The position numbers and the translations under genes were made by a program. The notes below the pieces were generated by a model. It saw nothing but the letters and a program-made list of their open reading frames with translations, was not told the origin of the DNA and made no database searches. 35,520 bases of DNA from an uncultured Lewinella sp. (GTDB taxonomy: Bacteria; Bacteroidota; Bacteroidia; Chitinophagales; Saprospiraceae): positions 1 through 35,520 of the forward strand of contig CALEDI010000328.1 in the NCBI GenBank assembly GCA_937949535.1. The letters are read 5' to 3'. Positions 4,648 to 32,302 of the stretch are shown piece after piece. Every line of letters begins with the position of its first letter. Positions within the stretch are counted from its first letter, which is position 1.

Positions 4648-4756
4648 GGAGGCGCGGCCGCAGGTGCGAGGAACGCTTTCCTCGGCGTTCCCTACCGAGG
4701 TGTTTGCAAACACCTTCAAACACCAGTTTCTCCATCCAAAAAAACAAAACACAACA

Positions 4757-5161
4757 ATGAACTACCTCGACGTAAGCGCACAAGCAGGTGCACGCTATTT
4801 TTCTGTACCTAGTACTGGCCCGGTCGTGATGCTGAACCTCCTCCGGTTCAAAGACAAGGCCGTGTTCCCCGAAGGCAAAGACCCCGGCGTATCCATGACC
4901 GGCCGCGAAGCCTACCGTAAATATATGGAATACACCCTACCTTTAGTTGAAGCCTCCGGCGGAGAAGTACTCTTCTGGGGCAAAGCCGAACACTTCCTCA
5001 TTGGCCCCGAAACAGAAACTTGGGACATGGTGCTCCTCGTTCGCCACCGCTCAAAAGAAGTTTTCCTTGAGTTCGCCCAGCACGAAGATTACCTCAAAAC
5101 CGCCTTCTACCGCTCAGCAGCTTTAGCGGATTCTCGGCTTTTGCCTATGGTTGCAGGTTAG
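4757..5161 (+). CDS. DUF1330 domain-containing protein
   Basis: Internal ATG of ORF 4538..5161 (MNYLDVSAQAGARYF...); VMLNLLRFKDKA and GGEVLFWGKAEHFLIG are typical of DUF1330. Confidence 0.8.
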   Translation: MNYLDVSAQAGARYFSVPSTGPVVMLNLLRFKDKAVFPEGKDPGVSMTGREAYRKYMEYTLPLVEASGGEVLFWGKAEHFLIGPETETWDMVLLVRHRSKEVFLEFAQHEDYLKTAFYRSAALADSRLLPMVAG

Positions 5162-5192
5162 TAGGTTGCAGGTTGCAAGTTGCAGGTTGCAG
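5154..5192. repeat. GGTTGCA heptad repeat, related to the array at 23383
   Basis: GGTTGCA GGTTAGTA GGTTGCA GGTTGCA AGTTGCA GGTTGCA; 26-mer TAGTAGGTTGCAGGTTGCAAGTTGCA shared exactly with 23383-23408. Confidence 0.85.
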
Positions 5193-5335
5193 TGTGACAA
5201 GGTTTTATAACCCGCCCCTTGCACCTGCGCTCCGTCGCCCTAATACTGATCGTCGGGCAGACAATGCGCAGTTTTGTAGCCCGACCATTTTACTATACGT
5301 ATCTTCGCCCTCTTCAACCTCAAAATAGCCACACA

Positions 5336-6412
5336 ATGTCTAAGAAAACATTCCGCGCCGGCGTATTGCACGGCGATGAAGTAACGGAACTCTTCCGTTA
5401 CGCCAACGAGAACAAATTCGCCATCCCCGCCGTAAACTGCACCAGCAGCAGCACGGTAAACGCGGTACTGGAAACCGCCAAGGCGCTCAACAGCCCCGTC
5501 ATCATCCAGTTCAGCAACGGAGGAGCTGCTTTCTTTGCAGGTAAGGGCATGAGCAACGACGGCCAAAAAGCAGCCATCGCAGGCGGCCTCTCCGGTGCCA
5601 TGCACGTCCACACCATGGCCGAAGCCTACGGCGTGCCCGTAGTGCTCCACACAGACCACTGCGCAAAGAAACTCCTCCCCTGGATCGACGGCCTCCTCGA
5701 AGCCGGAGAAAAGTTCTACGCCAAACGCGGCTTCCCACTATACTCTAGCCACATGCTAGACCTCAGCGAAGAATCTCTAGAGGAGAACCTCGAAATCAGC
5801 AGCAAGTACTTCAAGCGCATGGCCAAGATCGGGATGATGATCGAGATCGAACTCGGCGTTACCGGAGGCGAAGAAGACGGCGTAGACAACACCGGCGTAG
5901 ACAGCAGCAAGCTCTACACCCAGCCCGAAGAAGTATTCGAAAGCTACCAAGCACTCAGCAAAATCAGTGACCGCTTCACCATCGCAGCTGCCTTCGGCAA
6001 CGTACACGGCGTTTACAAGCCCGGAAACGTAGAGCTGACGCCCAAGATCCTGAAAAACAGCCAAGAATTCCTGAAGGAGAAGCTCTCCATCAAAACCGAC
6101 AACCCGATCAACTTCGTCTTCCACGGCGGATCTGGCTCCAGCCAAGAAGAAATCCGGGAAGCCATCGACTACGGCGCCATCAAAATGAACATCGACACCG
6201 ACCTCCAGTGGGCTTACTGGGACGGCGTCCGCGCGTTCGAAGCCGAAAAGAAGGACTACCTACAAGCCCAAATCGGTAACCCCGAAGGAGACGATAAGCC
6301 CAACAAGAAAAACTACGACCCCCGCAACTGGGTCCGTAAGGCCGAAGTCAGCTTCTCCACCCGCCTCAAGCAAGCTTTTGAAGACCTCAACTGCGTAGAT
6401 GTACTCGGGTAA
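5336..6412 (+). CDS. fbaA: Class II fructose-bisphosphate aldolase
   Basis: MSKKTFRAGVLHGDEVTELFRYANENKFAIPAVNCTSSSTVNA..., VVLHTDHCAKKLLPWIDGL, NFVFHGGSGSSQEEI, MNIDTDLQWAYWDG. Confidence 0.96.
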   Translation: MSKKTFRAGVLHGDEVTELFRYANENKFAIPAVNCTSSSTVNAVLETAKALNSPVIIQFSNGGAAFFAGKGMSNDGQKAAIAGGLSGAMHVHTMAEAYGVPVVLHTDHCAKKLLPWIDGLLEAGEKFYAKRGFPLYSSHMLDLSEESLEENLEISSKYFKRMAKIGMMIEIELGVTGGEEDGVDNTGVDSSKLYTQPEEVFESYQALSKISDRFTIAAAFGNVHGVYKPGNVELTPKILKNSQEFLKEKLSIKTDNPINFVFHGGSGSSQEEIREAIDYGAIKMNIDTDLQWAYWDGVRAFEAEKKDYLQAQIGNPEGDDKPNKKNYDPRNWVRKAEVSFSTRLKQAFEDLNCVDVLG

Positions 6413-7065: not shown

Positions 7066-10000
7066 ATGTATAAGATCTTTCAACCCGCACGCCGGCTTTC
7101 GTTCCTTCTTCCCCTAATCTTTCTCTTTGGTTTTGTTGCGCAGGTGAACGGGCAAGCAACCACTGTATACACGGATGCTTGGCGCACGTACAAAAAAGCG
7201 GAAGCAGACTTTCAGGACAACCTCCTAGCGAAAGCACAGCGTCAATACGGCGAAGTGATTGATATGGTATTGCCCCTGCAGCAGCCCGAGGCCTTACTCC
7301 TACGCCAGAAAGCCGAACTGATGCAAGCCAAAATTGCCGTTCGGCTCGGTAAAGTAGAGGGAGAAAAACTCATCCTAGACTTCGTCCGCCGCTACCAACC
7401 AGACCCAATTGCGAACGATGCCCTGCTGGAAATCGCCAACTACTACTTCAACGACAACCAGCTCGACAAAGCGCTCGACTACTACAGCCGCGTCCCCGCA
7501 GAGCTCCTCACCACCGAGCAGCGCGCGGAGCTGAACTTCCGCCTCGGTTACACGAACTTCGTAAACAAAAAGTTCCCCGCAGCCAAGCGCTACTTCCAGT
7601 TCAGCAAAAGCAGCCAGGGCGAGTTCTACTACCCAACCAACTACTACTTGGGCATCATTTACTTCTTTGAAGGCAACTACGATGCTGCGGTGGGCCAATT
7701 CAAAATTGCCGAAAAATCCAATAAATACGACGACTACATCCCGTATTACCTCACCCAAATTTTCTTCGCCCAGCGCCGCTACGACGAACTGATTGCCTAC
7801 GCTGCGCCCATTCTTGCTTCCAAAACCCGGATCAAGAATAAAAAAGAAATGAGCCAGTTGCTTGGCCAGACTTACTTCGAGAAAGGCGACTACGCCCGCG
7901 CTCGTCCGCTACTAGAAGAATTTGCGCGCAACAACCGCAAAATCGAAGAAGAACAACTCTACCAACTTGGCTTCACGCAGTACAAACTGAACGACTTTGA
8001 GGCCGCCGGCAAGACCTTCCGCGAGCTGGCAGCACAGAACAGCCTAGTTGGGCAATCTGCCAGTTACTACCTAGGCAATGTGGAACTAAACCGGCGCAAC
8101 GGCAACGGCGCCCGGACCGCTTTCGGAACGGCCTCAAGGCTCAATTTCGACCCCGCCATCCAGCAGGAAGCACTCTTCAACTACGCCAAGCTGAGCTACG
8201 AACTCAACTACCCATCCGATGCCATCACGGCCATCCAGAGCATCGACCCCGGCAGCCAGTACTACCTACAAGGCCAAGAGTTGCTCGGCGATGTGTTCGC
8301 TACCACCGAAGACTATGAACGCACCCTGAACCTGCTGGAAAGACTCCCCAACCGTAGCCCTCGCCTCGAAGAATCTTACCAACGCGCAGCGTTCAGTAGA
8401 GGGCTTGAACTCTTAAATAGTGGCGATGACGCAGGTGCAAAGGTTCTTTTCGATAAAAGCCTCCAGCGGCCTGTAAGCCCCGTCTTCCGAGCCCAAGCAC
8501 TCTACTGGTTAGCAGACCTCGCCAACCGCCAAGAAGACTACCCCACCTCCATCAACCTCACCAACCAATTCCTGACGCTAGCCAGAGGGATGCAAAACCT
8601 ACCGCCCCAAAGTAGCGTCTACACCGGCAACTACCTCCAGGGCTACAACTACCTCAAGCAGAAAAACCCCGTCGCGTCCTTAGATTACTTCAAGGCCGCT
8701 GTAGAAGGCATTGAACGCAACCTCCCCTACATCACCGACGCCGACGTGCGCGAACGTGTGCTCGGAGACGCCGTACTGCGCGCCGGAGACGCACACTTCA
8801 GCCGCAACCAATACGACCAAGCCGCTCGGTACTACAACAGTGCCGTACAGCGCAAAAGCTCCGGCTACGTTTACGCCCTCTACCAAAAAGCCGTTATTGA
8901 AGGCCTCCGCAACCAGACCGCAAACAAAGTCCTGAGCCTAGAGCAGCTCGTAAGCCAATACCCCAAAAGCGAATACGCCGATGATGCCCTGTTTGAGCTC
9001 GCCGCAGCCTACCAAGAGCTAAACCGCCCACAGGAAGCCCTGCAACCTCTCCGGACCATCGTGAGCAACTACAAGCAAAACTCGCCGCTCGTCAATCAGA
9101 GTTTGCTCAACCTAGGCCTCATCAGTTTCAACCTCGGCAACCAAGAAGCCGCCGTCAACTACTACAAGCAAGTATTCAGCAACAACCCTACCGCCGAAGA
9201 ATCTGAACGCGCCAAGGAAAACCTACGCGAAATCTACGTAGACAAAATGGGCCGCCCAGACCTCTTCTTCCAGTTCTTCGAAACCCTTCCGGGCCAAGAA
9301 GTCAACGCCGATGGGCGCGAAGCGATCACCTTCCAAGCCGCCCGCTCTCAGTACGAAAACGGCAACTACGACCGCGCCCTATCTGCCCTGACCGACTACC
9401 TACGCCAGTACCCCAACACGCCAAACGCACTCGCCGCTACCTACTTCCGAGGAGACAGCTACGTTGCTACCCAACGATATGCGGAAGCACTAGCAGACTT
9501 CGACCGCGTTGCGGCCTCTGGCCCTAGCGGGTACTACCTCCCGGCCCTCAACAAAGGAAGCCTCATCGCTTACCGCCACGTAAAAGACTACAACCGCTCC
9601 TTCCGGCTATTCCAAGCGCTCGAAAATGCCGCCCCTTCAGATGATATCCGGATCGATGCCCAAGTAGGCGCAATGCAGTCTGCTTACCAACTCAACGACC
9701 AGCGCAGCGTAGAAGACTACGCCCGCAAAGTCGCCAACAACGGAGGTGCGTCCGCTACCCAACGCCTGATCTCCAACTTCTACATCGGTAAAATCGCCTA
9801 CGATCGCCGAGATTACCGCACCGCACTGCCTGCCCTAAACCAAGTCATCGCTAACTCTGATGATGAACGTACCGCCGAGGCCCGCTACCTACGCGCCAAC
9901 ATCGCCTATCTCAACAACGAACTCACCAAGGCCGTAGACCTCGCCCTGGAGGCCAACCGCGAAAGCTCCGGATACCCTTACTGGGTCGCTAAAACCGTGA

Positions 10001-10227
10001 TCGTTCTTTCCGACGCCCTGAAAGACCAAGGCGGAGACAACCTCTACAACGCCGAAGCAGCACTAGAAGCACTCCTCGAAAACTACAACGGAGACGCAGG
10101 CATCGTTGCCGAAGCCCAACAACGCCTTACCGTTGTTCGCAACCTCATCGCGGCAGGCAGCCGAATCAACAATTCCCCCGTAGACCCCAACCGCTTTGAA
10201 ATAGACAACGGAGGAGGACGAAAGTAG
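7066..10227 (+). CDS. Secreted tetratricopeptide repeat protein
   Basis: 1053 aa with N-terminal signal peptide and many TPR-like units (KALDYYSRVPAELLTTEQRAELNFRLGYTNF, ALADFDRVAASGPSGYYLPALNKG). Confidence 0.88.
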   Translation: MYKIFQPARRLSFLLPLIFLFGFVAQVNGQATTVYTDAWRTYKKAEADFQDNLLAKAQRQYGEVIDMVLPLQQPEALLLRQKAELMQAKIAVRLGKVEGEKLILDFVRRYQPDPIANDALLEIANYYFNDNQLDKALDYYSRVPAELLTTEQRAELNFRLGYTNFVNKKFPAAKRYFQFSKSSQGEFYYPTNYYLGIIYFFEGNYDAAVGQFKIAEKSNKYDDYIPYYLTQIFFAQRRYDELIAYAAPILASKTRIKNKKEMSQLLGQTYFEKGDYARARPLLEEFARNNRKIEEEQLYQLGFTQYKLNDFEAAGKTFRELAAQNSLVGQSASYYLGNVELNRRNGNGARTAFGTASRLNFDPAIQQEALFNYAKLSYELNYPSDAITAIQSIDPGSQYYLQGQELLGDVFATTEDYERTLNLLERLPNRSPRLEESYQRAAFSRGLELLNSGDDAGAKVLFDKSLQRPVSPVFRAQALYWLADLANRQEDYPTSINLTNQFLTLARGMQNLPPQSSVYTGNYLQGYNYLKQKNPVASLDYFKAAVEGIERNLPYITDADVRERVLGDAVLRAGDAHFSRNQYDQAARYYNSAVQRKSSGYVYALYQKAVIEGLRNQTANKVLSLEQLVSQYPKSEYADDALFELAAAYQELNRPQEALQPLRTIVSNYKQNSPLVNQSLLNLGLISFNLGNQEAAVNYYKQVFSNNPTAEESERAKENLREIYVDKMGRPDLFFQFFETLPGQEVNADGREAITFQAARSQYENGNYDRALSALTDYLRQYPNTPNALAATYFRGDSYVATQRYAEALADFDRVAASGPSGYYLPALNKGSLIAYRHVKDYNRSFRLFQALENAAPSDDIRIDAQVGAMQSAYQLNDQRSVEDYARKVANNGGASATQRLISNFYIGKIAYDRRDYRTALPALNQVIANSDDERTAEARYLRANIAYLNNELTKAVDLALEANRESSGYPYWVAKTVIVLSDALKDQGGDNLYNAEAALEALLENYNGDAGIVAEAQQRLTVVRNLIAAGSRINNSPVDPNRFEIDNGGGRK

Positions 10228-12002: not shown

Positions 12003-13022
12003 ATGCAAGTAAACCTGACCTCCGATACCGCTACCAAGCCGACCCCAGCAATGCTAAAGGCGATGTTCGCCGCCGAAGTAGGCGACGATGTCTTCCGCCA
12101 AGACCCTACCGTAAACGAGCTTGAGGCAACTGCCGCAGCGCGCTTCGGGATGGAAGCGGCGTTGTATTGCCCCTCCGGAACCATGACCAACCAGCTGGCC
12201 ATCAAGTGCCATACCCAAGCACTAGACGAGGTGCTCTGCGAGGAAAAAAGCCACATTTACCAATACGAAGGTGCGGTATACAGCATGTTCTCCAGCGTTG
12301 GTGTTAACCTGATTCGTGGTGAGCGGGGGAAAATCCTTCCGGGGCAAGTGACGGCAGCGGTAAAGCCGCGCTACGACTGGCTACCGATCAGTCGCCTACT
12401 GGTCATCGAGAACACCTGCAATAAAGGCGGTGGATCGGTTTATACTATTCAGGAGGCGCGGACGCTGGTGCAAGAGGCCAAATCCTCCGGTTTAGCAGTG
12501 CACCTAGACGGCGCTCGCCTGTTCAATGCGCTGGTAGAAACCAAAGAAAGCCCCACGGAATGGGGCCAACTGTTCGATACCATCAGCATCTGTTTAAGCA
12601 AAGGCCTTGGTGCGCCGGTGGGCAGCCTTCTCCTCGGCCCAGCAGAGCTCATCGCTCGTGCCCGCCGCTACCGCAAAGTCATCGGCGGAGGTATGCGCCA
12701 AGCGGGTTACCTCGCCGCCGCAGGCCTCTACGCCCTCAACCACCACGTAGACCGCCTAGCAGAAGACAACGCCCGCGCCCGAAGACTGGCCGCAGCACTC
12801 GCTCCCCTACCCTTCGTCGCATCCGTAGAAAAGACCGAGACCAACATCTGCATCTTCCACCTCGCCGCAGACCTCATGGCGGCCGACTTCCTCGAAACCC
12901 TCGCCAGCCACGGCATTCAAGCCGTGCCCTTCGGCCCCCAGACGGTGCGCTTCACCACCCACCTCGGCGTTACGGATGAAATGATCGACTATGTCATCAA
13001 TACCTGCTCGTCTCTATCCTAA
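12003..13022 (+). CDS. ltaE: Low-specificity L-threonine aldolase
   Basis: MQVNLTSDTATKPTPAMLKAMFAAEVGDDVFRQDPTVNELEATAAARFGMEAALYCPSGTMTNQLAI; HLDGARLFNA; CLSKGLGAPVGSLLLG. Confidence 0.93.
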   Translation: MQVNLTSDTATKPTPAMLKAMFAAEVGDDVFRQDPTVNELEATAAARFGMEAALYCPSGTMTNQLAIKCHTQALDEVLCEEKSHIYQYEGAVYSMFSSVGVNLIRGERGKILPGQVTAAVKPRYDWLPISRLLVIENTCNKGGGSVYTIQEARTLVQEAKSSGLAVHLDGARLFNALVETKESPTEWGQLFDTISICLSKGLGAPVGSLLLGPAELIARARRYRKVIGGGMRQAGYLAAAGLYALNHHVDRLAEDNARARRLAAALAPLPFVASVEKTETNICIFHLAADLMAADFLETLASHGIQAVPFGPQTVRFTTHLGVTDEMIDYVINTCSSLS

Positions 13023-15284: not shown

Positions 15285-15451
15285 TTACACTTAGTTTAAA
15301 CCTAAAGCAAAGATACGAATTAATCGCCAATAAGATGTTAACGGGGATTAGGCAGCCGAACAATTAAGGTTCGGTTCGGATTAGTGGGGTGTTAAACTTC
15401 TACACTTTAGATCCGTCTCAAAAAAGATTACTTACTAGACTCCCCAGCCAA

Positions 15452-17914
15452 ATGCCTTTGCTTTTCAACTCCCCCTTGCACCTGCGTGCGCGCCTCTTCC
15501 TATTTTTCTCGCTGCTATCCTTGCTTTCTTTTGCACAGCCCCAGCCAGCATCTTCCCCCGGAAAGGTAGTTGGGACGCTGATAGACGCTGACACGGAAGA
15601 GCCTATTGGCTTCGCCAACGTCATCATTTACACTACCCGCGACAGCATGCTGACGGGTACTACCACAGATATTGACGGCAAATTCGAGTTCGAGAACGTT
15701 CCTCCGGGCGGCTACCGCGTAGAGATGAGCTTCATCGGTTACGACACCGAAAATCGGGACGTAGAGCTCAGCGAAATTGAGCGTGTTTTCTCCATCGGAG
15801 ACGTCTTCTTGGGTACCGCAGGGCAAGACCTAGACGAAGTAGTCGTTACGGCCGAGCGTGCAGTGATGGAGCTTGGCCTAGACCGCAAGGTTTTCAACGT
15901 AGAAAAATCAGTAGCCGCCGCAGGCGGCTCCGCCGAAGACCTACTGCGCCAACTGCCCAGCATCAGCGTTGACCTAGAAGGCAACGTATCCTTGCGCGGC
16001 TCCGGCAATGTCCGTTTCCTCATCAACGGTCGGCCTTCCGGTCTTGTTGGTTCAGACCCGGCTACCTACCTCAAGTCCCTCTCGGCCACCAACATAGAAC
16101 GCATCGAGGTAATTACCAACCCCGGCGCGGCCTACGACCCCGACGGGACGGCGGGCCTGATTAACATTGTGTTGAAAAACAAGCGCGACGATGGCTTCAA
16201 CGCCTCCATCAACCTCAATGCGGGCACCAACAACAAATTTGACGGCAGCCTAGACCTGAACTGGCGCAAAGGCAAGTTCAACACCTTTGCCGGTATAAGT
16301 GGTCGTTCCGACGAACGCTTCTTCCAGGGTTTTCGCGATCAAACGGGCGTGATTGAAGACAGCACCTTCAGCCGGAGATTCACTTTTGATGGAGATCGGA
16401 TCCGGAAGTCAACCACCTTCAAGCTGGGAACAGAATACAGCTTGGGTAAGCGCGCCACCTTCGGTTTGCAGGGCAACTACCAACTTGAAAACGGACAGAG
16501 CAACAACGAACGCATCACCCGCTTCTTCAACTCTGCCGGAGAACTGGACCGCGAGAGCAACCGCTTGGAAACCGAGCCTTCAGACGAGACGAACTACGAG
16601 GTAAGCGCAGACTACACCACGACCTTCAAAAAAGAAGGCCGCAAGCTGTCTGCCAACATACGCTACAGCCAAAACGACGAATCTGAGCAAGAAAACTACG
16701 ACGAAGTCATCGTTGATGGCAATGGTGTATTACTTGAAGACCTGCTTCAACAAAGCCCAGCTCTAGAAGACCGGACACAAGTTGTTGCACAGCTAGACTA
16801 CGAGCAAGCCATCGGAGAGTTCAAACTCACCACCGGCTGGCGCTCTACCCTTCAGGAACTAACAACGGACTCGGAGTTCGCTACTTTCGACGGCAACGCC
16901 TTCATCGTGAATGAGCAGCAGAGCAACCTGTTCAATTACCAGGAAGACATCCACGCGCTCTACGCCACCTTCGGCGGAAAAGTCAACGCGATCACCTTCA
17001 ACGCAGGCCTACGGGTAGAGCAAGCCTATACCACCAGTACGCTATTGGAGCCAGACTTTGAGGCCTTTGAAAACGACTACTTCAAGGTATACCCCAGTGT
17101 TTTTGCGGGTTATGCCTTTGATGACAACACTACTTTGCAGGCCAGCTATAGCCGCCGGATCAACCGGCCACGATCTAGGGCCCTCAACCCCTTCATCGAC
17201 CGAGGCGACCCCTTCAACCTACGCGGGGGCAATCCCTTTCTTTTGCCCGAACTCATCAACAGTTTCGAGCTGAACGTGCAGCAGCGCCACAGCTTGGGCA
17301 CACTAACGGCGGGCGTCTACTTCCGCCAACTCAACGACATCATCAGCCGCATCAACATCACCCAACCGGGAGGTGTCACCTTGGGGACCCGTGGGAACCT
17401 AGACCGAGGGCGCAACTACGGTATTGAGGTCATCAATACCCTCCGCATCGGTAAAAAACTGGAATTGACGGCGAGTGCGAACGGCTACAAGTCTGAAATC
17501 ATCGGTAGTGCAGACGACGAAGCGATAGACGCCAACGGCTACCTCTTTAGCGGTCGGGTTCAGGGCGGTTATCAACTGCCTGCCGACATTCAGGCGCAGT
17601 TCACGTACTTCTACCGCAGCCCCGGCGTGCGGCCGCAGGGCCGCATCGGGACCATCCAGAGTCTAGACCTTGGTTTCCGGAAGGAAATACTGGACAAGCG
17701 AGGTGCCATCACGCTCCGAGCAACCGACATTTTCAATACCCGCAGGTACCAGTTTGATACAGAACTTGCGGACCTGACCACGCGCAGCCAGTTTCAACGA
17801 GAGAGCCGCATCGTGTACATCGGCTTCCAATACAGCCTGCAACAGTTGAAGCCCGAACGCAAGCGCGGTGGTCGTGGGGGCGGCGGAGATGATGGCGGAG
17901 GTGGAGACTTTTAG
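15452..17914 (+). CDS. TonB-dependent receptor / outer membrane beta-barrel with carboxypeptidase-regulatory-like N-domain
   Basis: Likely start at MPLLFNSPLHLRARLFLFFSLL (ORF begins 15389); GTLIDADTEEPIGFANVIIY; plug domain EDLLRQLPSISVDLEGNVSLRGSGNVRFLINGRPS; C-terminal barrel and Gly/Asp tail. Confidence 0.9.
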   Translation: MPLLFNSPLHLRARLFLFFSLLSLLSFAQPQPASSPGKVVGTLIDADTEEPIGFANVIIYTTRDSMLTGTTTDIDGKFEFENVPPGGYRVEMSFIGYDTENRDVELSEIERVFSIGDVFLGTAGQDLDEVVVTAERAVMELGLDRKVFNVEKSVAAAGGSAEDLLRQLPSISVDLEGNVSLRGSGNVRFLINGRPSGLVGSDPATYLKSLSATNIERIEVITNPGAAYDPDGTAGLINIVLKNKRDDGFNASINLNAGTNNKFDGSLDLNWRKGKFNTFAGISGRSDERFFQGFRDQTGVIEDSTFSRRFTFDGDRIRKSTTFKLGTEYSLGKRATFGLQGNYQLENGQSNNERITRFFNSAGELDRESNRLETEPSDETNYEVSADYTTTFKKEGRKLSANIRYSQNDESEQENYDEVIVDGNGVLLEDLLQQSPALEDRTQVVAQLDYEQAIGEFKLTTGWRSTLQELTTDSEFATFDGNAFIVNEQQSNLFNYQEDIHALYATFGGKVNAITFNAGLRVEQAYTTSTLLEPDFEAFENDYFKVYPSVFAGYAFDDNTTLQASYSRRINRPRSRALNPFIDRGDPFNLRGGNPFLLPELINSFELNVQQRHSLGTLTAGVYFRQLNDIISRINITQPGGVTLGTRGNLDRGRNYGIEVINTLRIGKKLELTASANGYKSEIIGSADDEAIDANGYLFSGRVQGGYQLPADIQAQFTYFYRSPGVRPQGRIGTIQSLDLGFRKEILDKRGAITLRATDIFNTRRYQFDTELADLTTRSQFQRESRIVYIGFQYSLQQLKPERKRGGRGGGGDDGGGGDF

Positions 17915-18070: not shown

Positions 18071-18208
18071 GGCCTGAACCGGTGCCGAAACCTCCTCCTT
18101 GCACCTGCGGCCGCGCCCAAAATGCCTTTGTAGCACAGATACCACAAGACGATGACAGAATAACTATTCCCCCATCTTACTTTTGTGGGCATCGAAAAGC
18201 AAGTGTAC

Positions 18209-21944: not shown

Positions 21945-23567
<1,623 letters not shown>

Positions 23568-26396: not shown

Positions 26397-26906
26397 TTAG
26401 AGTGTACTGACGCGAACAAGCCCGTCGGTATCAATTTCTTCGACTACGATGGGCGCGCCCGTTGGGATGTCTTCCGTAGCGTTGGAGCGGGCTTTAAACT
26501 CCCGTTTGGTTCCTTTTACGTTTACTTGTACGAGGCCCTCGCCTCCGGCGGGGATGCGTAGGTAGACGGTTCCTTTCTCCATAATTGCGTCGTGAACAGA
26601 CCAATTGACGTTAGCTTGCTGGGAGAGCAAGAACTTCAGGATCATGCTCAGCACGTAAACCCCCACTGCACCTGCGGCCGCGCCCACCATAAATGCTAGT
26701 ACGGGATTGGCCTCCGAAATGAGCACCAACCGCACCACCCACGCACTGATGGAGAAGAAGGTAAGCACGCTTTTCACGGCTCCCAAACCATCTGCATCGG
26801 CGTCGAGGTCGATGTCCAAATCAAGCCCTCCGAGGATGGAGAGCAGTAGCAAAATGAGCAGCAAACCGCCGCAAATCAATGCTATATAGGTGAGTATCAG
26901 AATCAT
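26397..26906 (-). CDS. NfeD/YuaF-like membrane protein, operon partner of flotillin
   Basis: TM segments and C-terminal OB-like region (EKGTVYLRIPAGGEGLVQVNVKGTKREFKARSNATEDIPTGAPIVVEEIDTDGLVRVSTL). Confidence 0.8.
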   Translation of the reverse strand: MILILTYIALICGGLLLILLLLSILGGLDLDIDLDADADGLGAVKSVLTFFSISAWVVRLVLISEANPVLAFMVGAAAGAVGVYVLSMILKFLLSQQANVNWSVHDAIMEKGTVYLRIPAGGEGLVQVNVKGTKREFKARSNATEDIPTGAPIVVEEIDTDGLVRVSTL

Positions 26907-27345: not shown

Positions 27346-27413
27346 ATTTGGTTGTGTACACGAAGGTCCGGCTACAAATTCAGGAGTTCGCCCTATTGAT
27401 TACCTTCGCCCCC

Positions 27414-28598
27414 ATGAAAACAGTAACCCTCCAGAAAGGTAAAGACGGTGCCATCCGCCGCCGCAATCCGTGGGTATTTTCTGGCGCGATCAAGCGCGAG
27501 GAAGACGGCATTGAAGACGGTGATTTGGTAGCCGTAGACGCCATCAACGGCGACCGGCTCGGCTACGGGCACTACCAAAGCGGAGGCATCCGAGTACGGT
27601 TGTTGGGTTTCGGAGAAGAGGTGTTGCCGATTGAGGAGATATTTCGTGACAAGCTGGAGCAGGCGCTTAGCCTGCGCCAACAACTCGGTTTGGCGGATGA
27701 CCCGCTGACGAATGCCTACCGCGTTGTCCATGCAGCAGGCGATGGGTTGCCGGGGCTGATCGTAGACCGCTACGCTTCTGTCGCTGTTATTCAGTGTCAT
27801 GGTATAGGTATGTTTCGGCAGCGCAAACTAATCGCGAAGGTGCTGATGGAGTTGATGGGCGACGAGATAACGACCGTCTACGACAAAAGTGCCAAGACCC
27901 TACCCGATCGCTACCCCGCCGAAGACGGCGTGTTGTTGGGCGAGCAAGTTACCGAAGTTGTTGTCTTAGAAAACGGCCGCCGTTTTCGGGTAGACATTGC
28001 TAGCGGGCAAAAAACGGGCTTCTTCCTAGACCAGCGAGACAACCGCTGGCTGCTTGGCAGCTACGCAAAAGGCAAACGGGTGCTCAATACCTTCTGCTAC
28101 ACCGGTGGGTTTTCGGTGTATGCGCTTTTGGGCGACGCAGCGCAGGTGCAAAGTGTGGACCTGAGCGGCAGCGCGATCGACCTCACCAACGACAACGTGG
28201 GCCGTAACGGAGACTTCTCCGCCCAACACGAAGCCTACGCCGCCGACGTAATGGAGTGGCTCAAGGAGCACGCCAACGAAGACCCCTACGACATCATCAT
28301 CGTAGACCCGCCAGCCTTCGCCAAAAACAAACATAAGCGCCACAAAGCCGTACAAGCCTACAAACGCCTCAACGCCCGCGCTATGAAAGCCATCAAACCC
28401 GGCGGTTTGCTATTCACTTTCAGCTGTAGCCGCGTAGTGGAGCGCCAGCTTTTCTACGACACCATCGTAGCCGCAGGCCTAGAAGCCGGACGCGACTGCC
28501 GCGTCCTCCATCATCTCAGCCAAGGAGCCGATCATCCCGTAAATCTATACCACCAAGAAGGAGAGTACTTAAAAGGGCTAGTCTTACGCATCGGATAA
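27414..28598 (+). CDS. rlmI: Class I SAM-dependent rRNA (cytosine-C5) methyltransferase, RlmI-type
   Basis: MKTVTLQKGKDGAIRRRNPWVFSGAIKREE (PUA-like), GLPGLIVDRYASVAVIQ, SGQKTGFFLDQRDNR, VLNTFCYTGGFSVYAL, DIIIVDPPAFAKNKH. Confidence 0.92.
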   Translation: MKTVTLQKGKDGAIRRRNPWVFSGAIKREEDGIEDGDLVAVDAINGDRLGYGHYQSGGIRVRLLGFGEEVLPIEEIFRDKLEQALSLRQQLGLADDPLTNAYRVVHAAGDGLPGLIVDRYASVAVIQCHGIGMFRQRKLIAKVLMELMGDEITTVYDKSAKTLPDRYPAEDGVLLGEQVTEVVVLENGRRFRVDIASGQKTGFFLDQRDNRWLLGSYAKGKRVLNTFCYTGGFSVYALLGDAAQVQSVDLSGSAIDLTNDNVGRNGDFSAQHEAYAADVMEWLKEHANEDPYDIIIVDPPAFAKNKHKRHKAVQAYKRLNARAMKAIKPGGLLFTFSCSRVVERQLFYDTIVAAGLEAGRDCRVLHHLSQGADHPVNLYHQEGEYLKGLVLRIG

Positions 28599-31184: not shown

Positions 31185-31763
31185 CTAATCCGTGCTAAAC
31201 AAAAAGTCCAGCACCCGTTCCTTGCCGCTGAGGTTGCGACTTCCCTTCACCAAGACGGGTTTTACGGGTGGTAAGTAGACGGTATCTCGGACGTAGACTA
31301 GCTTGGGCGAGGCGGGTACTTCGTGGTAAACTGTGTCATATCTGGTGCGGTAACGGACTTGCTTGATGGTCTGGTAGACGGTGTCGGTGACCACAATTTT
31401 TTCGGGCGCGGCCGCAGGTGCAATAATGGTTTTTTCAACGAGCAAGGTCTCCGGCTCCCGGAGCAGGAGAACCGAGCTAACAACGAAGAACAGCAACCAG
31501 CCAGCCGCAGCGAGCCAAGGTAGCCAGCCAAACTTGCGCCCTTTAACTTGCCTTGCATCCTGCGCTGCGTCGCCCAAATGTGTTGTAGTACTAGCCAAAA
31601 AAGCGGTTTGCAGGCTAGCCGGCAACGCCTCCTCGGGTTCCTGCATCAGCAAAGTCAGCTCACGCAGCTCGGTGTAGGTAGCGCGGTCTATGGTGGCTCG
31701 CACGGCTGGGGGCAGGGCGCCGTAGTCGTAGTCGGCCAAGTAATCGAGGTAGTCCATAGTCAT
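31185..31763 (-). CDS. Putative anti-sigma factor / single-TM membrane protein
   Basis: Start MTMDYLDYLADYDYG overlaps the sigma stop; one TM (WLPWLAAAGWLLFFVVSSVLLL); translationally coupled to the ECF sigma gene. Confidence 0.6.
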   Translation of the reverse strand: MTMDYLDYLADYDYGALPPAVRATIDRATYTELRELTLLMQEPEEALPASLQTAFLASTTTHLGDAAQDARQVKGRKFGWLPWLAAAGWLLFFVVSSVLLLREPETLLVEKTIIAPAAAPEKIVVTDTVYQTIKQVRYRTRYDTVYHEVPASPKLVYVRDTVYLPPVKPVLVKGSRNLSGKERVLDFLFSTD

Positions 31764-32302
31764 TTGATTTCGGAGGCTTTGAGGAGGGCGGCAAGCTTTT
31801 TGAGGCCGTAGTGTAGGCGGCTTTTCACCGTTCCCGGCGAGCAGCCGAGGGCTTCGGCCGTTTGCTCGGTAGAGAGGCCTTTCTGGAAACGCAGCTCTAC
31901 GCAAAGCCGCTGGTGTGGCGGCAGTTGTTCGAGGGCCAGCCTGACGCGACGGGCTTCTGCCCGGGGCTCCTCCGGCGCGGCTTTCACGCTGCGGAGATCG
32001 GCGTAAACCGCCTCCCGCCGTTGGCGACGCGCTTCGCCTCGGTATTCGTTTTTCAGCAGGTTGGCCGCGATGGTGAAGAACAACGACGATAGGTCATCTG
32101 GCCCCGTCTCCGCCTCCCGGAAAGCGCGGCTTTCCAACAACTTCAGGAATACTTGTTGCTTGAGGTCTTCCGCCCGCGCGCGGTCTCCGTTCAGCCGCTG
32201 AACGAAGTAGGCATACAGCCGCGCGCCATACCGCCGGTAAAGGGCGGTAAAGGCGGGTTGGTGGCCTCCGGCGGCCTGGATGAGGAGTTGGCGATCGGTC
32301 AA
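31760..32302 (-). CDS. ECF RNA polymerase sigma factor
   Basis: FTALYRRYGARLYAYFVQRL, AEDLKQQVFLKLLE, LEQLPPHQRLCVELRFQKGLSTEQTAEALGCSPGTVKSRLHYGLKKL. Confidence 0.93.
   Translation of the reverse strand: MTDRQLLIQAAGGHQPAFTALYRRYGARLYAYFVQRLNGDRARAEDLKQQVFLKLLESRAFREAETGPDDLSSLFFTIAANLLKNEYRGEARRQRREAVYADLRSVKAAPEEPRAEARRVRLALEQLPPHQRLCVELRFQKGLSTEQTAEALGCSPGTVKSRLHYGLKKLAALLKASEIK

Follow-up and report, generated by a model that had tools for sequence, protein, structure and literature searches.

What kind of element recurs at nine places within one stretch of bacterial DNA, inside genes as well as between them? The question is raised by the 9-mer GCACCTGCG in the window, that is, the whole analysed stretch of 35,520 nucleotides, in which one copy lies around position 18,100. 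The first-pass annotation of this DNA had proposed an uptake-like sequence, a highly iterated palindrome-like element or an architecture/recombination signal.

Results

Copies of the motif in the window

All nine reported sites of GCACCTGCG were recovered. On the plus strand the word starts at 5221, 15478, 18101, 22429 and 26668, and the minus-strand copies occupy 4659-4667, 8430-8438, 28141-28149 and 31413-31421. The full 11-mer TTGCACCTGCG was present in seven of the nine sites and four copies were identical over the 17 bp of GCACCTGCGGCCGCGCC, both as had been described. In dinucleotide-preserving shuffles of the window, the expected counts were 0.04 for TTGCACCTGCG (7 observed) and 0.38 for GCACCTGCG (9 observed); none of the shuffles reached either observed count.

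Copy 1 (4651-4667, minus strand) has the main form GCACCTGCGGCCGCGCC preceded by TC instead of TT and, according to the ORF calls, is intergenic, just past a CAAX-protease gene. Copies 2 (5219-5240, plus strand, TTGCACCTGCGCTCCGTCGCCC) and 8 (28130-28151, minus strand, TTGCACCTGCGCTGCGTCGCCC), described earlier as a closely matching pair, were indeed present and were assigned to a spacing variant with CGCC shifted outwards by 2 bp (N6 and not N4). Copy 2 is probably intergenic, upstream of a class II fructose-bisphosphate aldolase gene, because the motif itself provides the TTG 'start' of ORF 5219-6412. Copy 8 is antisense in an RlmI-like rRNA methyltransferase gene (27348-28598). Copy 3 (8422-8440, minus strand, TTGCACCTGCGTCATCGCC) resides within the gene of a TPR-repeat protein (7066-10227), and copy 4 (15476-15494, plus strand, TTGCACCTGCGTGCGCGCC) in the N-terminal (signal peptide) region of a TonB-dependent receptor-like gene (15389-17914). 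The sequence TTGCACCTGCGGCCGCGCC was found twice: as copy 5 (18099-18117, plus strand), intergenic and upstream of an FAD-dependent glycerol-3-phosphate dehydrogenase-like gene, and as copy 9 (31405-31423, minus strand) on the sense strand of ORF 31185-31904 (anti-sigma-like according to the first-pass annotation; without a Pfam match). Copy 6 (22427-22445, plus strand, TTGCACCTGCGTTCGCGCC) is antisense in rtcB and codes for the variable loop GANAGAK, and copy 7 (26667-26684, plus strand, TGCACCTGCGGCCGCGCC) is antisense in an NfeD-like gene (26397-26906; so named in the first-pass annotation, without a Pfam match). A possible degenerate copy with two mismatches, GCACCAGCGTCCGCGCC, was located at 12455-12471 on the minus strand.

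The window also contains 7-bp tandem arrays (GGTTGCA / GCAACCT) at 5149-5192, 23387-23419 and 23449-23565, partly within a 42-bp higher-order repeat. Their word family, AACCTGCAAC, is the second commonest 10-mer of the sampled genome. The arrays share 'ACCTGC' with the motif, but they are tandem and constitute a separate feature.

Abundance in the source genome

The RtcB protein encoded in the window shared 86% identity with its counterpart in Neolewinella aurantiaca and 72-74% with those of N. antarctica, N. persica and an uncultured Lewinella. By sequence, this marine bacterium is a relative of Neolewinella within Saprospiraceae (Bacteroidota). In the source genome assembly (G000; 4.09 Mb, 335 contigs, 88% complete), the genome-wide count proposed in the first-pass annotation resulted in 473 copies of TTGCACCTGCG (226 + 247 by strand) and 770 copies of GCACCTGCGNNNNCGCC (373 + 397), compared with 1 and 0 for the respective reversed-pattern controls. 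Therefore, the motif is neither an effect of composition nor confined to the window, and the shuffles together with the reversed-pattern control rule out an origin by chance or composition. As a separate observation, TTGCACCTGCGNCCGCGCC was detected on 23 IMG/VR contig stretches (L269-L291), mostly as a single copy on each; the stretches could be chromosomal fragments under a wrong label, or phages that infect these hosts.

Anatomy of the site

The logo was derived from 84 aligned copies, with positions counted from the first T of TTGC; logos and gene context were obtained from a sample of about 315 kb of G000. The site is approximately 40 bp long and asymmetric, with a graded core between A-rich blocks, in the order pyrimidines, A-rich block, C...C, TTGCACCTGCG, nnnnCGCC, A-rich block. 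Upstream, the pyrimidines are at -15 to -13, the A-rich block at -11 to -8 and the two cytosines at -6 and -2. Downstream of the core, a second arm peaks as CGCC(C) at +15 to +19 and is followed by the second A-rich block at +20 to +25. By these positions, the two A-rich blocks would be about three helical turns apart. An alignment anchored on the second arm independently recovered the first half of the core. The spacing between the arms among 71 sampled copies was N4 in 56, N6 in 5 and N5 in 2. In the aligned copies conservation was graded by position, not by descent, and almost none was detected beyond about 25 bp on either side.

Placement relative to genes and strands

In the 315-kb sample, 39 copies were located within genes, 21 in sense and 18 in antisense orientation and in nearly all reading frames. 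The intergenic copies numbered 32 versus 8.5 expected, an approximately four-fold excess with the simple ORF-based gene calls used, which are approximate; they make up 45% of the sampled copies, the genic ones more than half. Among the 29 classified intergenic copies, 13 were between divergent genes, which is above the divergent share of intergenic bases, and 4 were between convergent genes, without enrichment. The mixed reading frames rule out conservation at the protein level. The earlier view that the motif is conserved as DNA is upheld by the use of nearly all frames and both orientations in genes and by the different frame in the RtcB loop of Lewinella sp. W8.

The copy density was about 1 per 5 kb, and in one genome the gaps were somewhat more even than random (gap CV 0.71 and 0.88). 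The strand counts on long contigs, which are not closed replichores, were 25:25, 52:37 and 46:34, with no significant overall strand bias. On contig C1 (1.13 Mb) of genome G006, which carries two forms of the motif, the GCACC form was distributed 31:9 and the GCTCC form 15:25 by strand, the sum (46:34) being balanced. The two forms lean in opposite directions, perhaps owing to a mutation bias between the replication strands that affects a single position of the motif.

Evolution at single sites

The variable loop of RtcB before RFWNEHNF contains the motif in both G000 and N. aurantiaca SSH13 (G102), where it is read as GANAGAK. The same loop of Lewinella sp. W8 (G112) contains it in another frame (GAGAQVQ), and that of Lewinellaceae bacterium SD302 (G109) has a dialect of its own, TTGCTACTTTG. 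In the remaining species the loop is of unrelated sequence, without the motif. In alignments of G000 with N. aurantiaca at 70-79% identity, the 9-bp core was intact at three of four orthologous coding sites, with one base changed at the fourth. This small sample points to maintenance of the motif at the DNA level in protein segments that tolerate it. N. aurantiaca also has a spacing-variant copy (L051:18835) that seems to occupy the intergenic place of copy 5; its position, which falls outside the BLAST alignment, was estimated from colinearity.

Dialects within the genus

GCACCTGCGNNNNCGCC was counted in 21 genomes of the genus and was clearly enriched in 18 of them, with 57 to 1243 copies (controls 0-3). 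The enrichment was weak in G118 (27 copies), which has only traces of the motif, and the word was nearly absent from G109 (4 copies) and G111 (2 copies). Unbiased k-mer counts revealed other motifs in the latter two. The dialect of SD302, TTGCTACTTTG, amounts to 827 copies (407 + 420) genome-wide compared with 0-4 in every other genome of the genus; its logo, C-A-TTGC-TACTTTG-nn-(A/G)GCC-AAAA, retains the main layout, except that the GCC arm is closer by 2 bp. In G111, TTACCTGCG followed by ccccgccgc was determined from 100 kb only; TTACCTGCGCCCCGCC is probably a dialect as well. G113 has the dialect GCTCCYGCG (268 copies), and G006 mixes both forms (GCACC 228, GCTCC 169 copies); elsewhere in the genus GCTCCYGCG reached at most 25 copies per genome.

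According to the logos, the dialects share the layout C-n-TTGC, a variable middle, GCC and an A-rich block. They are mutually exclusive, TTGCTACTTTG belonging to G109 and GCTCCYGCG to G113 and G006, the last with both forms. In the midpoint-rooted RtcB tree G109 and G111 share a subclade with two further genomes, G110 carrying the main form and G118 being almost devoid of it; therefore, a change or loss of dialect probably occurred more than once.

Other genera of Saprospiraceae

One genome from each of 99 genera was surveyed. Outside its genus the Neolewinella motif was absent (0-3 copies in these genomes). The top dispersed word of the family member G003 was GCTTTCGCC. GCTTTCGCCAA was strongly enriched in many other genera, with 534 copies in G077, 514 in G083, 249 in G089, 247 in G038, 233 in G072 and 174 in G054, among others (controls in these genomes 0-3), and its usual context is GGCTTTCGCCAAA(A/T). 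This family motif is possibly related to the genus motif, judging from the CGCC end followed by A's which both have in common. In five other genomes of the family, unbiased k-mer scans revealed no iterated motif, while the positive controls stood out clearly. The trait is thus patchy across the family. A possible CATTGCCGAAG motif in G063 was dropped once its contexts were inspected.

Uptake machinery and receptor candidates

ComEC was found in 20 of the 20 genus genomes searched, which is weak evidence because the protein is widespread in bacteria. The ATPase of type IV pili and type II secretion was not found in five genus genomes in a search with PF00437, whose controls matched in 14 of 14 cases; the matches in G000 were identified as ClpB and a helicase, and those in the four other genomes were equally weak. 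Therefore, DNA uptake would depend on a different machine in the outer membrane, as in Riemerella anatipestifer, a member of Bacteroidota that is naturally transformed without a pilus (PMC8459023). Its transformation requires ComEC, DprA, ComF, RecA, a helix-hairpin-helix protein, an outer-membrane protein, a surface protein and a DUF1343 protein (PMC8459023).

Two receptor candidates were rejected. The Riemerella-type DUF5689 surface protein was absent from 19 of 20 genus genomes. The sole exception, SD302, which is also the genome with the TTGCTACTTTG dialect, has a protein carrying three DUF5689 domains (G109:C115:8691-10592; L205-L207, L215). The other candidate was a large secreted protein adjoining comEC, with a T9SS sorting tail and carboxypeptidase-regulatory/dockerin-type (dockerin/HYR-type) domains. 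It was detected in G000 (contig C204, L213:2452-6426), N. aurantiaca, N. persica DSM 23188 (G107), W8 and SD302 (L210, L211, L212, L214). It failed as the receptor: ten genomes (G006, N. antarctica DSM 105096 or G101, G104-G106, G110, G111, G113, G117 and G118) gave no match at E<=1e-40, and most of them have the motif.

Discussion

Among the options named in the first-pass annotation, the uptake-like one fits best with an asymmetric site of about 40 bp, present on both strands and in several dialects. The palindrome does not agree with the asymmetry, and a strand-skewed recombination or segregation signal was not borne out either. We consider it likely that the motif is a DNA uptake-type sequence, i.e. 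a genome-wide 'self' tag, the function being inferred. During natural transformation, such a tag would be recognised in one polarity by a DNA receptor specific for its sequence, and conspecific DNA released by other cells would be bound preferentially through it. The bound DNA would cross the outer membrane by a machine other than a type IV pilus, pass through ComEC and be recombined. Repeated biased uptake would keep and spread the tags wherever proteins and promoters impose little constraint (molecular drive), while a changed receptor specificity would give rise to a new dialect.

In the main rival explanation, the motif is where a nucleoid protein, or another protein that organises the chromosome, binds; this protein would be lineage-specific, and its specificity would drift from one species to the next. 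The dispersal of the copies over both strands at the observed density, the comparatively even gaps in one genome and the extended A-rich flanks, which could bend DNA, agree with such an architectural role. However, the information content is very high for so many copies, several mutually exclusive dialects exist inside one genus, and coding loops are used in changing frames, all of which is unusual for nucleoid proteins; we regard this explanation as unlikely. A Chi-like recombination signal or a KOPS-like segregation signal along the chromosome would also appear as an oligonucleotide over-represented inside genes. Signals of these kinds are short (about 5-8 bp) and strand-skewed, whereas the present site extends over about 40 bp and the long contigs, which are not closed replichores, lack a significant overall skew, which makes this reading highly improbable.

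Many near-identical short copies and some close inverted pairs, seen in G100 and few in G000, would be expected from mobile elements, be it REP/REPIN or MITE copies or the target sites of a transposon or integrase. Yet conservation decays within about 25 bp and does not follow descent, and more than half of the copies are within genes without disrupting them, as in RtcB. Close pairs in G000 are few, with 3 within 250 bp in a sample of 71 copies, and the copies are neither extended conserved units nor mostly extragenic, as REP/REPIN or MITE copies would be. There is little chance that the motif is of this origin. A role in transcription would accord with the intergenic share and with the preference for divergent genes, but both orientations occur within genes, where most copies lie. 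The logo shows no T-run after the motif, convergent genes are not preferred, and the set of close inverted pairs, T-run and convergent placement that marks intrinsic terminators was not found. Terminators or promoter elements are hence a very improbable explanation.

The reading as an uptake-type sequence can be compared with known iterated sequences. HIP1 of cyanobacteria, an 8-bp palindrome, is likewise highly iterated genome-wide, occurs inside genes and is lineage-specific; unlike HIP1, the present motif is long and asymmetric and has graded flanks. The uptake sequences known so far act together with type IV pili. In the USS of Pasteurellaceae, the flanking segments are A-rich and protein regions under weak constraint are preferred, the same as was observed here. 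The present motif differs from USS in its sequence and in the A-rich blocks on both sides of the core. Also, the receptor predicted for USS belongs to the type IV minor pilins, while the Neolewinella lineage seems to be without the pilus ATPase. Further likenesses to USS are the core with graded flanks, the hundreds to thousands of copies and the dialects (Hin and Apl types) (PMC12616744, PMC7811141). With the DUS of Neisseriaceae the motif shares hundreds to thousands of asymmetric, species-conserved copies in and between genes and dialects with a common core (PMC3630211). Unlike DUS, it belongs to another phylum, is of unrelated sequence and longer, and has A-rich flanks on both sides; the Neisseria receptor is the minor pilin ComP (PMC3630211). 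The pilus ATPase was not found here. Riemerella anatipestifer resembles the present case in phylum, in the lack of a type IV pilus and in the presence of ComEC (PMC8459023). In contrast to the present case, no mention of an uptake sequence (DUS) was found in that paper, and the Riemerella surface protein is missing from nearly all genomes of the Neolewinella genus.

Thus, copy number, asymmetry on both strands, placement in genes and intergenic regions in any frame, lineage dialects and ComEC were all found as in uptake-sequence systems; the type IV pilus machine, known from both families, was not. Since the pilus ATPase was not found, the motif would not be part of a classical pilus-borne system but would only work like one. 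According to a 2025 paper (PMC12616744), sequence-specific uptake of self DNA is known solely from two proteobacterial families, Neisseriaceae and Pasteurellaceae. Searches of an open-access library returned neither a report of uptake sequences in Bacteroidota nor uptake or transformation data for this genus. On balance, we rather favour the proposal that natural transformation in Saprospiraceae employs a third system of self-DNA recognition, which has three or four dialects at the least within one genus and is read by a non-pilus outer-membrane receptor of a new kind.

If this is true, it would add a third, phylogenetically distant example of sequence-specific DNA uptake, in another phylum and apparently without type IV pili, and uptake sequences could arise with other machines. 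The named cultured strains which carry the tag (N. persica, N. aurantiaca and N. antarctica) make the proposal directly testable. The genomes would form a natural series for finding the outer-membrane DNA receptor of Bacteroidota by its co-variation with dialect, and the fast-changing dialects would mark recombination barriers between species.
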